Positions 1,903-13,274 of a stretch of 64,000 nucleotides of DNA are shown here, in pieces. The DNA comes from Akkermansia sp. (GTDB lineage Bacteria > Verrucomicrobiota > Verrucomicrobiia > Verrucomicrobiales > Akkermansiaceae). Each line of letters opens with the position of its first letter. The stretch's first letter is position 1. Location of the stretch: positions 1 to 64,000 of the forward strand of contig JAGBDZ010000061.1 of assembly GCA_017937215.1 (NCBI GenBank), in the 5' to 3' direction. Below the pieces are notes generated by a model. That model was given only the letters and a program-made list of their open reading frames with translations. It was not told where the DNA came from and did not search any database. A program made the translations under genes and the position numbers.

Positions 1903-4900
1903 TCAGAACGTGTACTTCAGACCAGCAGAGCCACCCGCCGTCGTCTGCTCAGAACGGAACTCACCGGTCACGTTGCCGAAGATCCCCCACTGGTCACCCA
2001 AGGGAACCAGCAGACCGGCGTTGAGGCGCAGGCCGCAGTTGCCGGCCTCCGGACCGGACAGCTGGAAGCTGTTGCCACCGCCGATGAAAGCGTTGTTCAC
2101 CTTCGTAGTGCTATCACCCGTATCGGCCACAAACATAGCCTCTGCGGAGAAGTAGCCCGGGTTCACCGTCTGGTCACCGAAGCGGTAGGTATAACGGGCA
2201 CCTACACCGAAGGTGAAGGAAGCCACGTCATCGAACGAGGAGCGCAGGCCGGCATTGCCCATGCCATCTTCCTCCATGTTATCCACCTGGGCAAACAGAG
2301 CCTCGGCCATCACCAGGCTGGAGAGGGAGTAGCTCTCCGTCTGCCAGATGGCGTAGGTCGTCTCATAGCTCATGGTGAATGCCATGGCATCCGTGCTGCC
2401 CTCAGCCGTGCCGGAGTAGCCGTGGCCAGGGGCATTCACACCCACCATGCGCTCCGTATCCATGCTGAAGAAGGCGGCACCGATCGAGCCCATCTGGGCG
2501 AAACGACCGCGGCGGTGCAACAGTCCCACATCGAGGAACACGCCGTCGGAATCAATCTTGGTTGCGCCGCAGTCGGCATCAGCCTGAGAGAAGGACAAAG
2601 CAGCCCCGAAGGTCCACTCATCATTAATAGCATGAGCCACGGTGAACATAGCACCGATGCTGTCGCGGTTGTACTCAGCGGCATTGCCATCCTCATTCAC
2701 GGTGGAGGAACCACCAGTCACTGAGGCGGAGACCGAGGTGGATTCCACATCGCTCAGACGAATTCCGCTGGGGGCATAGCGACGCTGCAAGCCGGCGGCC
2801 ACGCTCTGCAGCGTGCTGCGCAGCGTCTGCAGGTGTTCCTTGGTCTCATCGGCGATGAGCTTCGGCGCAGCAGCCAGGCCGGCACCGCTCAGACTCTCCA
2901 AGGCAGCCAAGGCAGCTTCCTCAGAGCGAGTGTGCTCCAGGGCATCCATCACGGCACCCAGTTCACCCACCGGGGCATCCAGCGCAGCCAGGGCATCAGC
3001 CGTGGCAGACTGGTTCTCGGTCTTGCCGGCTGCACCCTTATAGTTCCTGGAGAACACGATGTCACCACCTTCGGCATGCACGTTCAGCGTGTCGTAGCTG
3101 TGCAGCACCTCCGCAGCAAAGGAGCCCTTCACTGAGCCGGTCACCACAGAGTGGCGTTCCTGGTCAGCCACATTGGCCTCATTCGTGCCCATGTCGTTCA
3201 GCTGCAGCACAGCACCATCAATGCTCAGTACCCCGCTGTTGCGGATCTGGTCAGAGCCGCTGCGCTGGCCGAGCTTCACATCGGCCACCACGATGGAACC
3301 GGCATCAATGCTGCCGCCGTTCACCGCCACAGAGCCCATATTCTTCTCACCTGCAATCTGCATAGTGGAGTCCTTCAGGGTCAGCGTACCCAGCGTGGCA
3401 CCGGCGGCGGCATCCAGCTTGGAGCCATCCACCTTCACACCACCGATTGCGGTATCACCGGCCAGCACGAGCGTATCGCCACCGGTCTTCACGATGGAGC
3501 CTACGCCAGTCACCGTGCCCACCAGCTTCACGCCCTTGCCGGCATTCAGCGTGCCGGCAATGTCCAGCGTCTTACCGGTCAGAGTCACCTCGGAGGCATC
3601 CAAGTTGCCATCGATGGAAAGCTCACCGGCGGCAGCCGTCACGTCTGCGCTCACCGTACCATCACCGGCCAGGGTAATATCGCCAGTGTTGGAAACCACC
3701 TTGCCGGCAATATCCAGGTCACCGGCAGTCACCACCGAGCCCTCAGCCGTCAAGGTTGCACCTGTGGCCACCGCCAGATTCTTCACTGCGGCAGAACCGA
3801 CCTTGGAATCCGTGCTCACCGTGGTATCGCCCGCCTCCAGAGCACCGGAGATGGTGGAGTTGGACAGAGCAGCAGCACCCGTGGCCGTCACAGAGCCCTT
3901 CACCTCAGCATCGGTCAGCGTAGCGGCATCCGCTGTGGTCACGGAGCCAGTGATGGTGCCGTTGTGCACCGTCACAGCGCCGGAAGCGTTGGTCACAGAA
4001 CCAATGAGCTTGCCACCGCGAGTTACGTCTACCGTGGAAGCACCGGTGATATCGCCGGAAATCTTACCACCATCGGTCACGCTCACGGAATCAGAGGCAG
4101 CCACATCGCCGGTGAGCGTACCGTCGGTGGTCACGCTCACCGTGGTGGCTCCGGTCACACTACCGGCTGTCACCGTAGCTCCGGCTGTGACGCTCACCGC
4201 ACCGGCTTCAGTGATGCCGGCGGCAGTCACCGCAGCACCGTCGGAAGCAGACAGTCCATCATTGTTCAGCTCAATGGTGCCGACATTCTTGAAGGTTGCG
4301 GCATCCACCGTCAGGCCACCCGAGATATTGGCACCGCCCTTGTTGGTTACCTCTGCACCATCGCTCAGGCTCATGCCACCTTCGGCCACGCTGATAGCGT
4401 CCACATCTGTACCGGTGATGGTCACATCCAGGTCAGAGCCGCTCAGAATCAGGCCCTTGTCAGCCTTCAGCTCAGCCATCTTGCCATCGATATTGTTCAG
4501 TTTCACCGTGGTGGAATGGAAGCTTCCTTCCACCGCAACCGTGCCGTTAGTCAGCGTAGTTGTGCCGTGTACAGTCACATTAGCAGCGGCCAGCGTACCA
4601 GTGTTCACGCTCAGGTCATTGCCCACGTTCACATCCCCCTTCACCGTCACATTGCCGATGGTGATCATGTCTCCGGTCACATTCATGCCGGAACCGATGG
4701 TGGCGTTGGTCAGCGTAGCGTTGGCCACAGTGTTGCCGTTGTCTGCATTCACAGCATCGGTCTTAGTGTCCTTCACAATGAGGTCACCCTCGGTAGACAT
4801 GGTGATACTACCGATGGAAGTCCCATTCAGCTCAACCTTGGTAGCACCGCCCGTGATGCACCCAATGCTGCCGCCGCCGGTCACAATCTCACCATCGGAG

Positions 4901-7900
4901 TTCAGCGAACCAGTGATATTGGCATTCGTCAGCTCAGCACCGCTGGCACCGGACACAGAGTCGATGGTGCCATTTGTAGCGGTGAGCTTGCCGGTCATCC
5001 CGATGGCCCCCACCGTGGTGTTGGTGGTGCTCACATCGTTGGCACCGGTGATGCTGCCGATGTTGCCACCAGTGGCCACCACATCAGCATCCGGGCCACT
5101 CATGGCCAACTCACCCGTGATAGAGGCTGCATTCAGCACAGCACCGGTAGCACCGGTCACGGAAGCAGCGGTCAGCGTGCCATCAGCGGCATCCAGTGAG
5201 CCGGTCAGCACCACAGCCCCGGTGGTGATGGTGCCGCCATTGGAAATCTCCATAGAGCCGGCAACAATCTCATTGGCACCATTGCTGATAGTGCCGCCGT
5301 CAGCCTTCACCGCACCGTTGGCGGCATAGATGCTGCCGTTGGCCGTGATGGTGGCACCATCCTCTGCGGTCACACTGGCTGCACTGCTGGTAATTCCCTG
5401 AGCAGAGCTGATAGTGCCGCCGTTGGTTGCGACTACACCATTGTCGGCAGAAATGCCACCCTGCGTGGTTGTGATAGTGGAAGCATCTGCCACGACCTGG
5501 GACGTTGTGGAAATCGTGTTAGTAGTCAGGCTTGATGCCTCACCATTCAGGGCTTCGGCCCGTACCTCGTTCGTCAGGTTGGTCAGGCCCGTGCCCACTA
5601 CGGCTTCAGAACCCTTCAGTACAAGACCCGTCACGCCGGTAAGCTCAGCAATCTTCAGATCCGAGTTTTCCAGAACCAGCGTTGCAGTATCTACATTCAC
5701 ACCGTCCAGCTTACCTCCATTCTTCAGCGTCAGCTCGTCCGTCACCGTCACATCCGTTGACTTCAGAGTAGCCTTCGTGCCATCGATGGTCAGGTCATTT
5801 ACCGTCACCTCAGAAGCATCCACTGTAGAAGCCCCGGCGATGGTCAGGCTATCCAGATCCACCTTGTTGGCAGTCAGCTTGGAACTACCGTCTGCAGTGG
5901 CATCCAGAGTCAGGTTGGTGCCGCTCACGTTGCCGGTAATGGCAAGCGTGGAATTGGTAAGCACCAGGCCAGTGCCGCTGTTGATCTGCAGGTTTGCAGC
6001 CGTCCAATTCTGGTTGCTGGCAGTATCAGCCTCAGTTGCATCAGCGTTGCCCACAATGATTCCCTTCTCTGCCGTGATGCTGGTGTAGGCATTAGCACCG
6101 GTCAGGGAGGCGATGGTTACGCTGCTGGAGGCAGACTCAATGGTGTTCACCAGGGTAGCATCGGGAGTACCCTCAACTGCCCCCATCTCACCAATCACGA
6201 TTGCACCGTTACCGGTAGCACCGCCGGTGGTACCCACCTTTACCGTGGTTCCCTGTGCCGTCATCGCATCGATGGTGATGGCTACATCATCCGGGCTGAC
6301 AGTGCCGCGGGCAATGAGTTCCTGACCAGTGCCGGCAAGCGTGCCGACGCTGATAATGCCGCCATCCACCTCCGTACCGGAGCCCTGCAGCACACCGACG
6401 ATGTACACATCGCCCGTGGTGGCAGTCAGGGTGTTATCTGAGCCGTCAACTCCACCGGTAATGATGATGTCGCCCTCAGCGGTGGTCACCGTATTCTGCC
6501 CGGCACCGGCAATGGAAGTCACCGTCACATCGCCTTTAGCCGTGAGCGCGTTCTCAGCGCCCATGATGGCACCGGTAGTAATCTCACCATTGGTTGCAGT
6601 CAGTTCGTTCGAATTGCCGGTAATGGAGCCGCTCACAATGCCGGCGGTCTCGGAAAGCAGCTTGTTGCTGTTGCCAGTGATATCCCCGGTCTCGATGGAT
6701 TCGGTGGCGGTAAGCTCGTTGCCGTCACCATTGACAGCCCCGGTCTCAATCGTGGTGCCGGTCAGTGTATTGCCGTCGCCCGCGATGGATTCGGTCAAGA
6801 TATCGCCGTTCACTGCGGTCAGCTTATTCGCATCGCCGGTAATGGTTCCAGTAGTCAGCGTAGCACCATCACCCTCCACCTCGATACCATTGGCAGTCAG
6901 GATATTACCATTACCTTCGATAGCACCGGTGGTGACAGTGGCTGCAGCAACCAGCTCATTGTATTCACCATCAATAGCGCCGGTGGTGATGAAGCCTTCC
7001 TCAGATGCCAGCGTGTTACAGTCGCCAGTGATGGCACCAGTAGCGATATTACCCATGGCGGTCAAGGTATTGCCCTTGCCCTCCTGTCCAGCGGCGGTGG
7101 CATCATCGGCACTAGTAATGGTCCCGGCCTGAATGCCGCCGGTTTCAGAAGTCAGCGTATTGCCGTTCCCCTGAAGTGCACCTTGCAGGTAGATACCCTC
7201 ACCAACACTGTTCGTCCCCTTGGCCAGCAGCGTGTTCCCAGTGCCGGCGAGAGAAACCCCATCCGTGGCATCCAGGATGATGCGGCCCGTGTCGGCAGTC
7301 AGTGTGTTCTGGTCACCGGCAATGCCTCCGGCAATGCGGATTCCGTACTGAGAAGCACTCATACCGTGAGAAGTCAGCTCGTTGGCATCGCCCGTCAGCT
7401 TACCATCCACATTGATGGAAGCCGCGGCTTCCAGCTCGTTGGCATCGCCGGTGATGGCACCTGAATTCACAGCCCCGCGGGTGGAAAGCAGGATGTTACC
7501 ATTGGCATCAGTGCCGTCCACGCCAATACCGCCAAGGGCGATGTTGTTATCAGCGGTCAGCTGGTTATCACTACCGGTCAACTTGCCACTAATGGTGATG
7601 AAACCGGTATTCGCCACAGCGGCATACTCCGCATTCCAGCCTGCTTTCTCATCATCGGCCAGAGCATTGTAGGCCTCCGGAGTAATTTCGGCACCGTCCT
7701 TCCAGTACCTGGCGACGGTGGACAGCTCGTAAGCGTTGATATCAGTCTTGTTGGCACTGAAATCGCGAAGCACGGTAAGGGAGGCTATGCCATCATCCTT
7801 AGTTTCCACGGCACCCAGCGTAGCCGAGGCACTGGCCTGGTAGGTAGCATCCACAGCCAGCGTAAGCTGACCGGTGGGCAGCACCGTGTAGTCTTTTCCA

Positions 7901-10900
7901 TCGAGATTAACGATGGAACCAGGTTTTGTCTCGCCGACGATCGGAGCGGTAATCGCAGACAGGAAATCATCCTCCGCATCGGTCAACCCGGCAAGGGCCT
8001 CGGAAACAATGGCACCGGTATTCTCAACCGCGCCCGTGCCGAGCGTAGTGGTGGTGTACTCAAAGTTGTACTTGGCCACCACGTCGCCATCGTTGAGCAC
8101 ACTGCCGGCAGGAAGCAGCTCCAGCGAGCCCTCGGCGTTCTCCTTATAGAGCTTCATCCCCTCTGCCACGGTCACTGTATTACCCTGGCCGCAGTTTACC
8201 TTGTACATATAGGCCTTGGCTCCCTCCACGGCAGTGGTGGTGCCGGCTTCCGTGCTGGCAACGGTTGCCAGGCGAGTCAGTCCGCCGGTCTGGATGGTGG
8301 AGCGGCTATCCAGCTGGGCCACCCCCGTCTGGTGGGCATCTGTCAGATCACGCAGCTTCACATTGGCATCCACTGCGTCTGCAGAAGCACCCAGTGCATC
8401 ACCCACAGCGGCTACATCGCCCAGGATGACGGTACCGCCATTCAGCCCAAGACTCAGGTAATCACCATTATTCAGCTTCGGCGTAGTAAGTTCTCCATTC
8501 ACCACGTTGATGATACCGTGAGCAACATAGTTCACAGCCGGACCGATAGAAGCCACAGCAGAGCTGGTGGAGCCATTGCCCACGAGGCTCAGCACACCTT
8601 CGTTGTCGAACTTAAGCTCATCAATACGAGCATTGCCCTTGATGGTTACCTCAGTACCCTTGTAATCATCGATGATGTATGACTTGCCGGCACCTTCACC
8701 AGCCCCGCGGACCTGGAGAGTATCGATATAGGCATCGCCGTTGATGACAACAGAGGAAAGGTCGGCTCCCTCCGTATACAGATCGCCAGCATTCACCTTC
8801 ATGGTCTTAACGAATGCTGTTCCGTCAATCGAGATCTCTGCCCCCTTCTTCACATTCACCGTGCCGAAGTAGTTATACTGATTTTCAGGATTTCGATTAT
8901 TTCCGGCAGCCCCAGACTGACCATTGTTTGCCCAGATATTCTTAATAGCAATGGTTGAACCATCGATATTCAGCGTACTTGAGTTTTCATAAGCCCCACC
9001 GGCCTTACTATTCACATCCGCCAGTTGAGCAGCGGAAACCGTGCCATCCCCTGCCAGTGCATACACGTTGGTCAAATTCAGAGTCTGGTCTTTGCCCATG
9101 GCGGTTTTGGTAGCGACCTGCACATTGGCATTTGCAACACTCAGCGTTGCTGCAGCACCGGAAATATCCAGCGTACCTTCCGTCACCAGCGAAGCATCAT
9201 GGTTCCCGGCAGACTGAATATCGCCATCCAGATTCACGGAAGAATCATCGGTAATCGTCATATCTCCCTTGGAGTACAGGTTCACATCATCCAGCAGCCG
9301 GCTGCCGGTGATGGTCAGCGCACCATTCCTGATGTTCACGTCCGCGCCGGAAACTGTGCTACCCGTGATGCTGCTGGCATCTGTAGCTGAAAGAACGGTC
9401 TTCGTGTAGGTCTCTATGGCATTTCCCTCAGCATCCGTACCAGCCAGCGCGGCGGCAGCAATGGTGGAATCCGTCACAGAGAGCGCACCGGCGCCAGTAG
9501 TGACAGTGGCGGCACTGATGAGGTATCCATCGATAATGATATCACCGGCAGCTGTCGTGATTTCTGATTCACTGATGCTTTTCTCAAATACGCGTTCAGA
9601 AACCAATACATCCATGTTCACGCGGCTGCTCCAATTATCCGCTAACCATGCAAAATCTGCGGTCTTATATGCAGCCAGCTGTACCGCAGAAGAGAACGTG
9701 AGCTCGTAATCACGGGAACTGGGGGATATGGACACATCGTCAAATATGAATGTCGCGTTGCCGTTTTCCACTGTGCATGAGGTGGAGCTGGCCACAACCT
9801 GGCCACCTTTCTTGAGGGTCATCACCGTAGAATCGGCAATGCTGTGCCCGCTGCGAATCTGAACTGTCACCGAGGTCAGCTTGCCAGCCTCCGGAGCAAC
9901 ACCAATCGCCGTCAGACCCTTCTTCAACTTGATACTAGAGTATTCACCACCATTAGGCGGTAAGTCTCCGATATAAGAGGGCTCAGACGCCGCTGCATGT
10001 TCAACAATTGCGCACGTGCTATTCAGATCAATAGAACCGCTCCTGGTGGAAATCACCACATTGGAAAGAGTAGAATCGGTCACCTTGACATCTCCATAAG
10101 GCACATCGGCTGTCACAGGAGTGCCGGCCAGAGAGGACTCCTTGGTTACGGCAGCAGGTGCCACATCGGAGTAGGAGATGGAGCCGTCTTCCCCGATGGT
10201 GGCAGAAACGCCGCTCTTGATGGTAGCGTTGGCGAGGGTGCTATCGGATATGATGATGGAACCGCCGATGGTGGAGTCGAAGTCGGACACATCCTGATTG
10301 CTGATACCCCTGGTAGAGAGAGCAATACCATCGATGGTGACGGAGGAGAGCTTGATATCGCCCTCGAGGTCAAGCACGCGGGTGCCGTTGACATTGGCAT
10401 CGCTGCCAGAAATTTCCATGTGTGCACCGCCAATCACAACACTGTCGGTCAGGGCACCGCCGTCCTCTACGGTGATGGAGCCCTCATTGCCGGTGATGGT
10501 GGAGCCGGTGATGGTGGAGCCGGCTCCACTGACGGTGATGCCGTCGATACCATCGGCCTCAGCCCCGATAATAGAGCCAGACTCGATAGTGCCACCATTC
10601 TGCACAGTGAGACTGCCGGAAACATTTTCAAGATCGGCACCGTTCACAGTGGAAGCATCGACGGTGACGTTATTGGCACCATCGATAGAGCCACCTTCGA
10701 TAGAGGCCCCATTCTGCACAAGCACATTGCCCTCTGCGGTCACATCAACACCCACGATTGCAGACTCATCAACCGTGAGATCGCCACCGACATTGACGGT
10801 GATGCCGGCGTTATCGTCGGAGGTATCATCAGGTGTGCCACTGTCGTTGGGAATATCAGTGATAGTGGAGTTGCCGGTGAGGGTGAGATCGCCGGTGGCA

Positions 10901-11991
10901 ACGATGGAGGCACCATCTGTGACATCAATATTGTTGAGGGTAATATCACCCTTATCGGGGGAAGCGGACTGGTCGGCAGTGGTGTTCACCGAGCCGGTAA
11001 TGGTGCCGTTGTCGAGGAAGATATCCCCACCAGTGGAGGTGACGGAGCCGGCAAGAGCTTCTACATTGCCGGTACCTGTGGTGGTGCGGGAAAGAATATC
11101 ACCGGAAGCAATGATAGCGGAGTCTGCATCAATATGGAGCGTGCCGCCGATAGTCACATTACCGTCAATATCCGCCGAGCTGGCATTAAACTTGAGGTCG
11201 TTCACGGCCACATGCCCGTCAATATCTGCAACAGTATTGGCAAGACCGAGGTTGCCCGCATTTTCAAGATTGGCACCAGCCATAGCAGCGACGTTGCTCC
11301 CGGTAATATACAGAGAGCCCTTGCCGGAAACAGCCCCCAAATCCAGGACGGAATCTGCTGCCTCTGTGTTATCGATGCTGAGTTCGGAATCAGAGGAAAG
11401 CCTGGTCGAGGCAGTCTCAATGCTCACGTTTTCCAGAGCAACGGCAGAGTAGCCGGCGACCAGGCGGGAATTCACCTCAAGCGCATCATTGGCCGTGATG
11501 CTGGTCGGGCCTGCCACGGCATCGCCCTTGGTGACAACGCTGTTATTAAACTGAACAACATCTGCCGTGAGGGAGGTGTTGCCTTCAAACTGGGTCTCAT
11601 ATGTGGTAGTCCCCGGAGTAGGGCTGGAAACCTCGAAGGTGAGATATCCATCATCTGTTACGGTCTCAGTGAAAGGAGTCCAGGAAGAATCGCCCGGAAC
11701 GAACTCAGTCGTGGAGAGAGTGCCATCGGCTTCCAATTCATACCACTTGTTATCGATAGACTGCGCGATAGCTACAGCCTTTGTATCATCGGTATAGTAG
11801 TATGTCTTGGTAGCTTCTTGGGCAATGTAGGTATTGCCGCTGAGCCCGGGGGTTCCAGATGTAAACACATGGTCATTCTTACCAAATTCCGTATAGGTAT
11901 TGGCACCGTATGCGTTGTACACGCTGGCACTGACAGCGATTACTGCCGCTATGAGGCTGGCACGCAGTTTTACAGGCAGATGTAATTTCAT
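1903..11991 (-). CDS. Giant type V autotransporter with repetitive beta-helix passenger
   Basis: This 3362-residue surface protein begins with a Sec signal peptide (MKLHLPVKLRASL, hydrophobic core, predicted cleavage after AYGA near residue 30). The passenger is Gly/Thr/Ser/Asp-rich and built of short repeats typical of a right-handed beta-helix. One array at residues ~1480-1900 (DNA ~6300-7560) uses units like ITGDANELTA and a second at ~2550-2760 (DNA ~3700-4330) uses units like VTGATTVSVT. A non-repetitive domain interrupts it at ~680-800. An LxxLSG-type helical linker (~2990-3070) leads into a C-terminal autotransporter beta-barrel (~3090-3362) that ends in the hallmark aromatic residue (GLKYTF). 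Export is via Sec, then barrel insertion by BAM. The function is probably adhesion or surface display. Expression is probably phase-variable because an invertible segment lies just upstream. Confidence 0.92.
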   Translation of the reverse strand: MKLHLPVKLRASLIAAVIAVSASVYNAYGANTYTEFGKNDHVFTSGTPGLSGNTYIAQEATKTYYYTDDTKAVAIAQSIDNKWYELEADGTLSTTEFVPGDSSWTPFTETVTDDGYLTFEVSSPTPGTTTYETQFEGNTSLTADVVQFNNSVVTKGDAVAGPTSITANDALEVNSRLVAGYSAVALENVSIETASTRLSSDSELSIDNTEAADSVLDLGAVSGKGSLYITGSNVAAMAGANLENAGNLGLANTVADIDGHVAVNDLKFNASSADIDGNVTIGGTLHIDADSAIIASGDILSRTTTGTGNVEALAGSVTSTGGDIFLDNGTITGSVNTTADQSASPDKGDITLNNIDVTDGASIVATGDLTLTGNSTITDIPNDSGTPDDTSDDNAGITVNVGGDLTVDESAIVGVDVTAEGNVLVQNGASIEGGSIDGANNVTVDASTVNGADLENVSGSLTVQNGGTIESGSIIGAEADGIDGITVSGAGSTITGSTITGNEGSITVEDGGALTDSVVIGGAHMEISGSDANVNGTRVLDLEGDIKLSSVTIDGIALSTRGISNQDVSDFDSTIGGSIIISDSTLANATIKSGVSATIGEDGSISYSDVAPAAVTKESSLAGTPVTADVPYGDVKVTDSTLSNVVISTRSGSIDLNSTCAIVEHAAASEPSYIGDLPPNGGEYSSIKLKKGLTAIGVAPEAGKLTSVTVQIRSGHSIADSTVMTLKKGGQVVASSTSCTVENGNATFIFDDVSISPSSRDYELTFSSAVQLAAYKTADFAWLADNWSSRVNMDVLVSERVFEKSISESEITTAAGDIIIDGYLISAATVTTGAGALSVTDSTIAAAALAGTDAEGNAIETYTKTVLSATDASSITGSTVSGADVNIRNGALTITGSRLLDDVNLYSKGDMTITDDSSVNLDGDIQSAGNHDASLVTEGTLDISGAAATLSVANANVQVATKTAMGKDQTLNLTNVYALAGDGTVSAAQLADVNSKAGGAYENSSTLNIDGSTIAIKNIWANNGQSGAAGNNRNPENQYNYFGTVNVKKGAEISIDGTAFVKTMKVNAGDLYTEGADLSSVVINGDAYIDTLQVRGAGEGAGKSYIIDDYKGTEVTIKGNARIDELKFDNEGVLSLVGNGSTSSAVASIGPAVNYVAHGIINVVNGELTTPKLNNGDYLSLGLNGGTVILGDVAAVGDALGASADAVDANVKLRDLTDAHQTGVAQLDSRSTIQTGGLTRLATVASTEAGTTTAVEGAKAYMYKVNCGQGNTVTVAEGMKLYKENAEGSLELLPAGSVLNDGDVVAKYNFEYTTTTLGTGAVENTGAIVSEALAGLTDAEDDFLSAITAPIVGETKPGSIVNLDGKDYTVLPTGQLTLAVDATYQASASATLGAVETKDDGIASLTVLRDFSANKTDINAYELSTVARYWKDGAEITPEAYNALADDEKAGWNAEYAAVANTGFITISGKLTGSDNQLTADNNIALGGIGVDGTDANGNILLSTRGAVNSGAITGDANELEAAASINVDGKLTGDANELTSHGMSASQYGIRIAGGIAGDQNTLTADTGRIILDATDGVSLAGTGNTLLAKGTNSVGEGIYLQGALQGNGNTLTSETGGIQAGTITSADDATAAGQEGKGNTLTAMGNIATGAITGDCNTLASEEGFITTGAIDGEYNELVAAATVTTGAIEGNGNILTANGIEVEGDGATLTTGTITGDANKLTAVNGDILTESIAGDGNTLTGTTIETGAVNGDGNELTATESIETGDITGNSNKLLSETAGIVSGSITGNSNELTATNGEITTGAIMGAENALTAKGDVTVTSIAGAGQNTVTTAEGDIIITGGVDGSDNTLTATTGDVYIVGVLQGSGTEVDGGIISVGTLAGTGQELIARGTVSPDDVAITIDAMTAQGTTVKVGTTGGATGNGAIVIGEMGAVEGTPDATLVNTIESASSSVTIASLTGANAYTSITAEKGIIVGNADATEADTASNQNWTAANLQINSGTGLVLTNSTLAITGNVSGTNLTLDATADGSSKLTANKVDLDSLTIAGASTVDASEVTVNDLTIDGTKATLKSTDVTVTDELTLKNGGKLDGVNVDTATLVLENSDLKIAELTGVTGLVLKGSEAVVGTGLTNLTNEVRAEALNGEASSLTTNTISTTSQVVADASTITTTQGGISADNGVVATNGGTISSAQGITSSAASVTAEDGATITANGSIYAANGAVKADGGTISNGANEIVAGSMEISNGGTITTGAVVLTGSLDAADGTLTAASVTGATGAVLNAASITGELAMSGPDADVVATGGNIGSITGANDVSTTNTTVGAIGMTGKLTATNGTIDSVSGASGAELTNANITGSLNSDGEIVTGGGSIGCITGGATKVELNGTSIGSITMSTEGDLIVKDTKTDAVNADNGNTVANATLTNATIGSGMNVTGDMITIGNVTVKGDVNVGNDLSVNTGTLAAANVTVHGTTTLTNGTVAVEGSFHSTTVKLNNIDGKMAELKADKGLILSGSDLDVTITGTDVDAISVAEGGMSLSDGAEVTNKGGANISGGLTVDAATFKNVGTIELNNDGLSASDGAAVTAAGITEAGAVSVTAGATVTAGSVTGATTVSVTTDGTLTGDVAASDSVSVTDGGKISGDITGASTVDVTRGGKLIGSVTNASGAVTVHNGTITGSVTTADAATLTDAEVKGSVTATGAAALSNSTISGALEAGDTTVSTDSKVGSAAVKNLAVATGATLTAEGSVVTAGDLDIAGKVVSNTGDITLAGDGTVSADVTAAAGELSIDGNLDASEVTLTGKTLDIAGTLNAGKGVKLVGTVTGVGSIVKTGGDTLVLAGDTAIGGVKVDGSKLDAAAGATLGTLTLKDSTMQIAGEKNMGSVAVNGGSIDAGSIVVADVKLGQRSGSDQIRNSGVLSIDGAVLQLNDMGTNEANVADQERHSVVTGSVKGSFAAEVLHSYDTLNVHAEGGDIVFSRNYKGAAGKTENQSATADALAALDAPVGELGAVMDALEHTRSEEAALAALESLSGAGLAAAPKLIADETKEHLQTLRSTLQSVAAGLQRRYAPSGIRLSDVESTSVSASVTGGSSTVNEDGNAAEYNRDSIGAMFTVAHAINDEWTFGAALSFSQADADCGATKIDSDGVFLDVGLLHRRGRFAQMGSIGAAFFSMDTERMVGVNAPGHGYSGTAEGSTDAMAFTMSYETTYAIWQTESYSLSSLVMAEALFAQVDNMEEDGMGNAGLRSSFDDVASFTFGVGARYTYRFGDQTVNPGYFSAEAMFVADTGDSTTKVNNAFIGGGNSFQLSGPEAGNCGLRLNAGLLVPLGDQWGIFGNVTGEFRSEQTTAGGSAGLKYTF

Positions 11992-12088
11992 ATCTGTTAA
12001 TCAGTTGTTGTTTTGTATAGTGGAAGAAACTTGGAACAGGCAGCTGAACCATGAAGAGACAATCCGGCCTTGTAGCAAGTCCATCGTG

Positions 12089-12094
12089 ATTCTA
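12089..12094 (-). promoter_or_regulatory. Fixed -10 element (TAGAAT) of the autotransporter, outside the invertible segment
   Basis: On the minus strand TAGAAT lies 4 bp beyond the left inverted repeat, on the autotransporter side. In the orientation given here the hexamer 17 bp upstream is ACATTT, which matches the -35 consensus at none of six positions. If the segment flips, that hexamer becomes TTGACT with exactly 17 bp spacing. This would make a near-consensus sigma70 promoter with a leader of about 90 nt. Confidence 0.65.
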
Positions 12095-12098
12095 CGGC

Positions 12099-12112
12099 TT
12101 TGTAATCCGTAA
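12099..12112. repeat. Left inverted repeat (IRL) of the putative invertible segment
   Basis: The 14-bp sequence TTTGTAATCCGTAA is the exact reverse complement of 12241-12254. It flanks 128 bp of AT-rich, non-coding DNA between two divergent genes, one of which is a tyrosine recombinase. Confidence 0.85.
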
Positions 12113-12240
12113 AATGTTAACTTAAAATCACGCTTTTTCAATAGATTATATTTCTGTAGTCTTTGCATAGTCTATATCGCACGGAAAGCAGTTCCTGCTT
12201 GCAATATTTTCTTTTCTGAATAACTGATTTCATGCTTGAC
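12113..12240. promoter_or_regulatory. Putative invertible promoter segment (inverton)
   Basis: This 128-bp AT-rich segment is bounded by perfect 14-bp inverted repeats. At its right edge it carries TTGAC (12236-12240), which with the first T of the repeat gives TTGACT pointing outward. In the present orientation this -35 faces the recombinase and meets only AGATAC at 17 bp, a poor -10. After inversion it would face the autotransporter and meet TAGAAT. The segment also contains a minus-strand TATAAT (12145-12150) with TAGACT 18 bp upstream (12169-12174). That is a second, possibly weaker promoter that faces the autotransporter in the present orientation. Confidence 0.7.
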
Positions 12241-12254
12241 TTACGGATTACAAA
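12241..12254. repeat. Right inverted repeat (IRR) of the putative invertible segment
   Basis: TTACGGATTACAAA is a perfect 14-bp inverted copy of 12099-12112. It ends 12 bp before the recombinase start codon, so the recombinase gene lies directly outside its presumed substrate. Confidence 0.85.
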
Positions 12255-12266
12255 AGCGAGATACCA

Positions 12267-13274
12267 ATGAAGATTGAACTAACCGAAAACGAGATTGCGG
12301 CACTGGCTCTGCTGAAGAGCAGCGGGGTAGAGGCGCTGGAGGCAGCGCAAGTTGCATGCCGCGCCCTGAAAATCGGACGAGGACGAGTGAAGCGCACGCT
12401 CCGCTGCCTGACGGAAGGAGAAAAAGCTCTGCGCCAGCAGGAACGCACGGTTTCGTTTCAAAAAGCAGTCGAAGCGGCGCTGGAGGCGCGGCGGGAAAGG
12501 CGGGTGCGGACGGTCGACGACTTCCGGTATTTCACGCGGCGGTTCATGAAGCGTTGCCCGGGGATGGCGCGGCGGAAGGTGCGGGCGATAACGCCGCAGG
12601 AGTGTGCGCAGTACATTGAGCAGGCGTTTGATACGCCGAGGCAGCGGCAGAAGGCGCGCTTAATCCTCAGCGGGGTGTTCGGCACGGCGGTGAAGCGGGG
12701 CTGGTGCAGTGAGAATCCGGTGGCGAAGGTGGAGGTGCCGCGGGTGGTGGAGAAGCAAGTACCGATTCTTTCGCCGCAGGAGATTTCCGACTTAAAGCAG
12801 ACAGCGGCGAGCTACCGGGGCGGCAGCTGCGCGGCGGCGGTGGGGATGATGCTGTATGCCGGTATCCGCCCGCACGAGGTGGCGCGGCTGAGCTGGGAGC
12901 AGGTTGATTTGCAGGAGCGGGCGATTTATGTTATGCCGCAGCACAGCAAGACGGGCGGTGCGCGCCGGGTGACGATTCATAAGCCGCTGCTGCGGATATT
13001 GCGGGCGCACCGGCGGGCGGATGCGGAGAAAATATGTCCGCCGGACTGGCTGCGGCACTGGCGGGAACTGCGAAAAGCGGCGGGGTGGGACTCCCCTGCC
13101 CATCCCTGGCCGCAGGATGCGCTGCGGCATACCTTTGCGAGCTATCACCTGAGCCATTTCCGCAGCTTTGCGGAGCTGCAACTCGAAATCGGGCACCGGG
13201 ATGCGACGCTGCTGCGCACGCGGTATGTGGACCAGCGCGGGGTACACTCCTCTGCCCAGTTCTGGGCAGCGTGA
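12267..13274 (+). CDS. Tyrosine recombinase, probable invertase of the adjacent promoter segment
   Basis: This 335-residue phage-integrase-family protein has an N-terminal SAM-like DNA-binding region (~60-145) and a C-terminal catalytic domain (~165-325). The catalytic set reads R201 (in GIRPHEV), K228 (in SKTGG), R287 (in DALRHTF), H310 (in IGHRD) and Y320 (in RYVD). The position that is usually the first His of the HxxR box is D284, an uncommon but tolerated change in this family. The start lies 12 bp from the right inverted repeat, and no phage structural or excision genes lie nearby. That favours a dedicated site-specific invertase over a prophage integrase. No good Shine-Dalgarno or promoter is obvious in the current orientation, so its own expression may also depend on the switch. 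Confidence 0.85.
   Translation: MKIELTENEIAALALLKSSGVEALEAAQVACRALKIGRGRVKRTLRCLTEGEKALRQQERTVSFQKAVEAALEARRERRVRTVDDFRYFTRRFMKRCPGMARRKVRAITPQECAQYIEQAFDTPRQRQKARLILSGVFGTAVKRGWCSENPVAKVEVPRVVEKQVPILSPQEISDLKQTAASYRGGSCAAAVGMMLYAGIRPHEVARLSWEQVDLQERAIYVMPQHSKTGGARRVTIHKPLLRILRAHRRADAEKICPPDWLRHWRELRKAAGWDSPAHPWPQDALRHTFASYHLSHFRSFAELQLEIGHRDATLLRTRYVDQRGVHSSAQFWAA

Follow-up and report, generated by a model that had tools for sequence, protein, structure and literature searches.

How could 128 bp of DNA between an autotransporter gene and a tyrosine recombinase gene decide whether the autotransporter is made? The locus lies in a 64,000-nucleotide stretch of an Akkermansia genome (hereafter the window), which corresponds to contig C19 of a 2.48 Mb assembly in 151 contigs; the closest named records carrying the recombinase are Akkermansia MAGs, mostly from goat, sheep, buffalo and yak gut. 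A first-pass annotation, made from the sequence alone, had named both neighbours and placed between them a perfect 14-bp inverted repeat with a 128-bp gap. We verified the coordinates and reverse complementarity of the arms, and domain searches bore out the neighbours. PF03797 (Autotransporter beta-domain) was found in the C-terminus of the product of 1903–11991 (E = 5.5e-30), a barrel that marks it as an autotransporter (type V secretion). PF00589 (Phage_integrase) was found in the other frame (E = 3.5e-12), which is intact; a phage-integrase-family tyrosine recombinase stands next to the repeat, as for a recombinase-driven promoter inverton. The features of the locus are the following:

1903–11991, minus strand: autotransporter gene, the putative target, 3362 aa (PF03797)
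12089–12094 (read 12094–12089), minus strand: −10 hexamer TAGAAT, lying beyond the invertible segment towards the target gene (sequence)
12095–12109, minus strand: target-side recombination site, 15 bp, CGGATT-ACA-AAGCCG (sequence; match to the published motif)
12099–12112, plus strand: left arm of the perfect 14-bp inverted repeat, TTTGTAATCCGTAA (sequence)
12113–12240, no strand: invertible segment, 128 bp, whose present orientation would be OFF (arms and comparison with related segments)
12145–12174, minus strand: locus-specific internal promoter candidate TAGACT-18-TATAAT (sequence, promoter scores, shuffles)
12183–12195, plus strand: 13-mer GGAAAGCAGTTCC, possible accessory protein site (fixed distance in nine related segments)
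12236–12241, plus strand: −35 hexamer TTGACT at the inner right edge, at present facing the recombinase side (sequence)
12241–12254, plus strand: right arm of the perfect 14-bp inverted repeat, TTACGGATTACAAA (sequence)
12244–12258, plus strand: recombinase-side recombination site CGGATT-ACA-AAAGCG, with no −10 after it (sequence and genus comparison)
12267–13274, plus strand: tyrosine recombinase gene, 335 aa, the likely inverter (PF00589)

The repeat is unlikely to be a chance pairing. It is the single perfect 14-mer inverted pair at 60–300 bp separation in the 64 kb window, dinucleotide shuffles of which gave a mean of 0.1 such pairs per shuffle, and when the intergenic stretch was shuffled 3000 times no 14-mer pair appeared. 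With the segment inverted, the sequence in front of the autotransporter becomes TTGACT-17-TAGAAT, whereas the −35 slot (12117–12112, minus strand) presently reads ACATTT; the first-pass arithmetic was right in every detail. So was its call of OFF for the reference state, as the assembled orientation leaves the −35 away from the outside −10. After a flip the ON junction would read TTGACTTACGGATTACAAAGCCGTAGAAT, with a predicted autotransporter transcription start near 12082.

We propose that the locus is a phase-variation switch in which the recombinase flips the segment, joins a split promoter and turns the autotransporter ON. This reading, to which we assign a probability of roughly 0.86, builds on the sequence anatomy, on its recurrence and polarity in the genus, and on the finding of homologous segments in both orientations. 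The adjacent tyrosine recombinase would recombine the two inverted 15-bp sites and thereby invert the 128-bp segment. Of a sigma-70-type promoter, the segment would carry just the −35 half, at one edge, while the −10 half would stay in the chromosome just beyond the target-side site, with the recombination site as the 17-bp spacer. In the ON orientation TTGACT-17-TAGAAT would be formed and the autotransporter transcribed; in the OFF orientation, that of the assembled genome, the −35 would face the recombinase gene with no −10 there. A search of the recombinase flank for a −10 serving the recombinase's own gene found none.

The double role of the site can be read from its arithmetic. Each arm can be taken as a 15-mer tyrosine-recombinase site with half-sites, and the target-side site agrees with the Akkermansia inverted-repeat motif CGGATT..AATCCG, which PMC13343947 cites from Jiang 2019. 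Compared with CGGATT-N3-AATCCG, the inner half-site is exact and the outer one degenerate at both ends of the segment; with these paired inverted sites the window locus would be an Akkermansia inverton of the Jiang motif family. The inverted order is TTGACT, TA, the 15-bp site and TAGAAT, so the spacer is 2 + 15 = 17 bp; in elements of the type found in A. muciniphila MucT, it is 1 + 15 + 1 = 17. If the proposal is right, the length of the site cannot drift, since it would be constrained twice, as recombinase site and as 17-bp spacer.

The layout recurs widely. The window's own genome contains 16 recombinase matches (15 paralogues besides that of the window), most with inverted-repeat arms of 11–19 bp around about 117–152 bp directly upstream, and the exact −35 edge GCTTGACTTACGGATT occurs at four loci of this genome. 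All 25 genomes first sampled from the genus, the window's own among them, carry the recombinase family; 14 genomes taken from other families of the order lack it. A scan of IMG/VR for GCTTGACTTACGGATTNNNAA gave no match. As box II the family has DALRHT, with Asp where tyrosine recombinases usually have His, and this is kept in most paralogues.

We gathered the regions upstream of about 130 recombinase family members and counted 92 non-redundant elements. Joining the −35-bearing edge to the target flank yielded TAnnnT at a spacing of 16–18 in 82/92 elements, whereas joining it to the recombinase flank did so in 0/92. The flanks are mostly unrelated, and after clustering them the contrast was 72/82 clusters for the target flank and 0/82 for the recombinase flank. 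Because the −35 edge was chosen from the edge itself and the flanks were read afterwards, this contrast is independent of the choice, except for a few loci corrected by eye: initial ON/OFF ties or wrong assignments at L008, L009, L010, L084, L088 and L134 were amended by hand and three loci were dropped, the uncorrected counts being 84/95 and 2/95. The combined promoter score of the ON junction was 11.6, against 4.7, 3.1 and 2.5 at the three remaining junctions (paired Wilcoxon p about 1e-16, a value that is optimistic because the elements are related). The split −35/−10 design, which had been inferred from one locus, is thus strongly supported by sequence across the genus, and the window locus fits it, with a −35 at the inner edge, a −10 beyond the target-side site at 16–18 spacing and none on the other flank.

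An ordinary invertible promoter would explain the locus differently: the complete TAGACT-18-TATAAT inside the segment (12174–12169 and 12150–12145, minus strand) would drive the autotransporter now, and the edge −35 would be incidental. This candidate scores 12.1, which 12 of 500 segment shuffles also reach, as against 14.0 for the split promoter; its TATAAT is common to the window segment and the closest segment, L148. At the edge that lacks the −35, an outward-reading TATAMT is slightly more frequent than expected (24 of the 92 elements, with 17 expected), mostly in one clade. However, the −35 partner of the TATAAT is not kept in L148, and complete promoters within the 92 segments, scored in both directions, were at shuffle level. 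A classical invertible promoter, with both −35 and −10 inside, thus does not appear to be a property of the family, and such an explanation leaves the fixed −35 edge and the one-sided −10 unaccounted for; we regard it as unlikely. The internal candidate noted at first pass is present in the sequence and may act at this locus, but it is not a general feature.

Under the split-promoter reading the internal candidate could still play a part. It faces the autotransporter now and would face the recombinase once inverted; the OFF state may therefore be leaky, or the recombinase may be fed in the ON state. An extension compatible with the split promoter is a reciprocal switch: once the segment is ON, this promoter would transcribe the recombinase and bias switching from ON to OFF. 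The preponderance of OFF states in the assemblies (82 OFF and 10 ON over the 92 elements) would agree with such a bias, but these counts can reflect MAG consensus instead, and the internal promoter is not general; we hold the extension to be rather doubtful.

The constancy of TTGAC beside the site, MucT included, could also mean that it serves recognition by the recombinase instead of acting as a −35; the switch would then work through a terminator or RNA structure. The transcript of the region does fold better than shuffles (z = −3.7), largely owing to the arms. Yet a recognition element would be expected at both edges and TTGAC stands at one, and a −10 spaced by 17 bp and confined to the target flank would not follow from this explanation, which we hold to be very improbable.

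The orientation of related segments bears on whether the segment flips. L150 (ON) and L146 (OFF) share 76% identity when one is inverted and 50% in the same orientation; the corresponding values are 73% and 52% for L034 and L036, 80% and 47% for L073 and L105, and 65% and 50% for L010 and L009, both from the window's own genome. A search among assemblies for an inverted copy of the exact window locus found none, as would be expected if it were a fossil element whose arms remain after recombination was lost. Against this stand the perfect arms, the intact recombinase frame and the relatives in both states, and we judge a fossil highly unlikely. Flipping at the window locus is instead inferred from the relatives that carry homologous segments in opposite orientation and from published flipping in the genus: A. 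muciniphila invertons of this inverted-repeat family flip in mice, one of them beside autotransporter genes (PMC11892184).

In the type strain A. muciniphila MucT (2,664,102 bp), where the position of wza agrees with published coordinates, a search for TTGACNNCGGATTNNNAATCCG allowing up to 3 mismatches gave 84 matches and a reversed control 0. Here we found 27 further paired elements (within L222–L250) with TTGAC at the same edge. In 21/27 a TA follows at a spacer of exactly 17 on one flank alone, and in none on both, over a background of 5%; mostly it is the flank whose open frame is closer. The MucT −10 keeps this TA and not the final T, perhaps through a different sigma preference or an activator. 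The position 2,092,093 given in PMC11892184 falls within coding sequence in the assembly examined. L247, 1.96 kb further on, has nearly the arm spacing of the published element and is probably that element in another assembly; it precedes an 1845-aa PF03797 autotransporter.

The recombinase-less cps1 inverton was not counted as support, since the polarity of the split model does not clearly fit its published states. It correlates with capsule and was reported in vitro as ON in MucT and OFF in A. massiliensis and A. biwaensis (PMC13343947). Its −35 points away from wza in the MucT assembly and towards wza in several other species, so that its polarity may be opposite to the model. The orientation of this inverton differs between MucT and several other Akkermansia assemblies (L180, L181, L173, L174, L184).

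The other putative targets in the window's genome include further autotransporters (L006 with PF03797; L007 and L008, which resemble it in sequence), membrane and glycan-transfer genes (L005, L009, L012 with DUF6056, L017 with GT2) and a gene of sulfatase fold that resembles phosphoethanolamine transferases (L010). Another is a restriction-modification gene of the MmeI type (L016), where the −10, TACAAA, does not end in T. Together they form a predicted surface-and-defence regulon. We consider it probable, with a good deal less assurance than for the switch itself, that the genus has a so far undescribed design in which the recombination site is the 17-bp spacer and each flip joins or parts −35 and −10, with an own recombinase at many loci and with autotransporters, surface-glycan and phosphoethanolamine-type transferases and an MmeI-like restriction-modification enzyme as targets. 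The layout is shared by dozens of loci in the genus, at genes for surface and defence functions. Akkermansia degrades mucin in the gut, where it is abundant; the switches would act on its surface proteins and on a defence enzyme.

Several known systems share parts of this design. The Bacteroides Mpi/Tsr systems (Krinos 2001, cited in PMC13343947) comprise many surface loci, each with an inverting promoter, and local tyrosine recombinases for outer-surface proteins; they differ in that the promoter is described within the segment and that Mpi, which acts on numerous sites, belongs to the serine recombinases. Hybrid promoters with a −35 in the recombination end and a −10 beyond the junction are found at IS ends and IS circle junctions, but arise by transposition and not by reversible inversion with a dedicated recombinase. 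An inversion altering a promoter in Mycoplasma bovirhinis was considered as a precedent and set aside: it involves 155-bp repeats, homologous recombination and little change in resistance. In E. coli, the invertible element ipuS also neighbours genes for tyrosine recombinases and switches on an autotransporter, UpaE, but it is 260 bp long with 7-bp repeats, has its mapped start and putative promoter inside, and comes with an intervening gene, ipuR (PMC6083910). fimS of the type 1 fimbriae is also a short ON/OFF element inverted by tyrosine recombinases, but with the promoter contained in it (per PMC6083910).

The published Akkermansia invertons (Jiang 2019, as cited in PMC13343947; group 138 in PMC11892184) are like the window locus in genus, site motif and surface-gene targets, autotransporters included, and their flipping was shown by reads. 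In these two sources the promoter is a motif enriched in the inverton, with no −35 inside/−10 outside split or site-as-spacer described. Our literature search, which did not extend to the founding Jiang 2019 paper, returned no description of a promoter split by a recombination site. Akkermansia invertons, their inverted-repeat motif and their flipping are already published; the split promoter may be a new variant of the invertible promoter. If the split design is right, sequence alone would tell whether any such element is ON or OFF, in Akkermansia genomes and metagenomes alike, since a promoter forms at one junction only. It may also account for an Akkermansia inverton promoter motif less significant than the Bacteroides one (PMC11892184), perhaps because half of the promoter lies outside the inverton.

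Some further observations concern individual elements. At L016 and L031 (G000:C17:17301) an element precedes an MmeI-like restriction-modification gene, which suggests phase-variable phage defence. At L163 (about 1380–1530; G000:C20:3634), outside the recombinase matches and with a degenerate second arm, TTGACATACGGATTCTGAAAGCG-TATAAA stands in an assembled ON-like state before a membrane-protein-like frame. Finally, in nine related, otherwise diverged segments, that of the window included, a GGAAAGCWGTWCC-like 13-mer keeps a fixed distance of 57–59 nt to the inner −35 edge; its loci are 12183–12195 and L005, L009, L010, L016, L034, L036, L146, L148 and L150, the distance at L016 being 100 nt, and it is possibly a site for an accessory or regulator protein.
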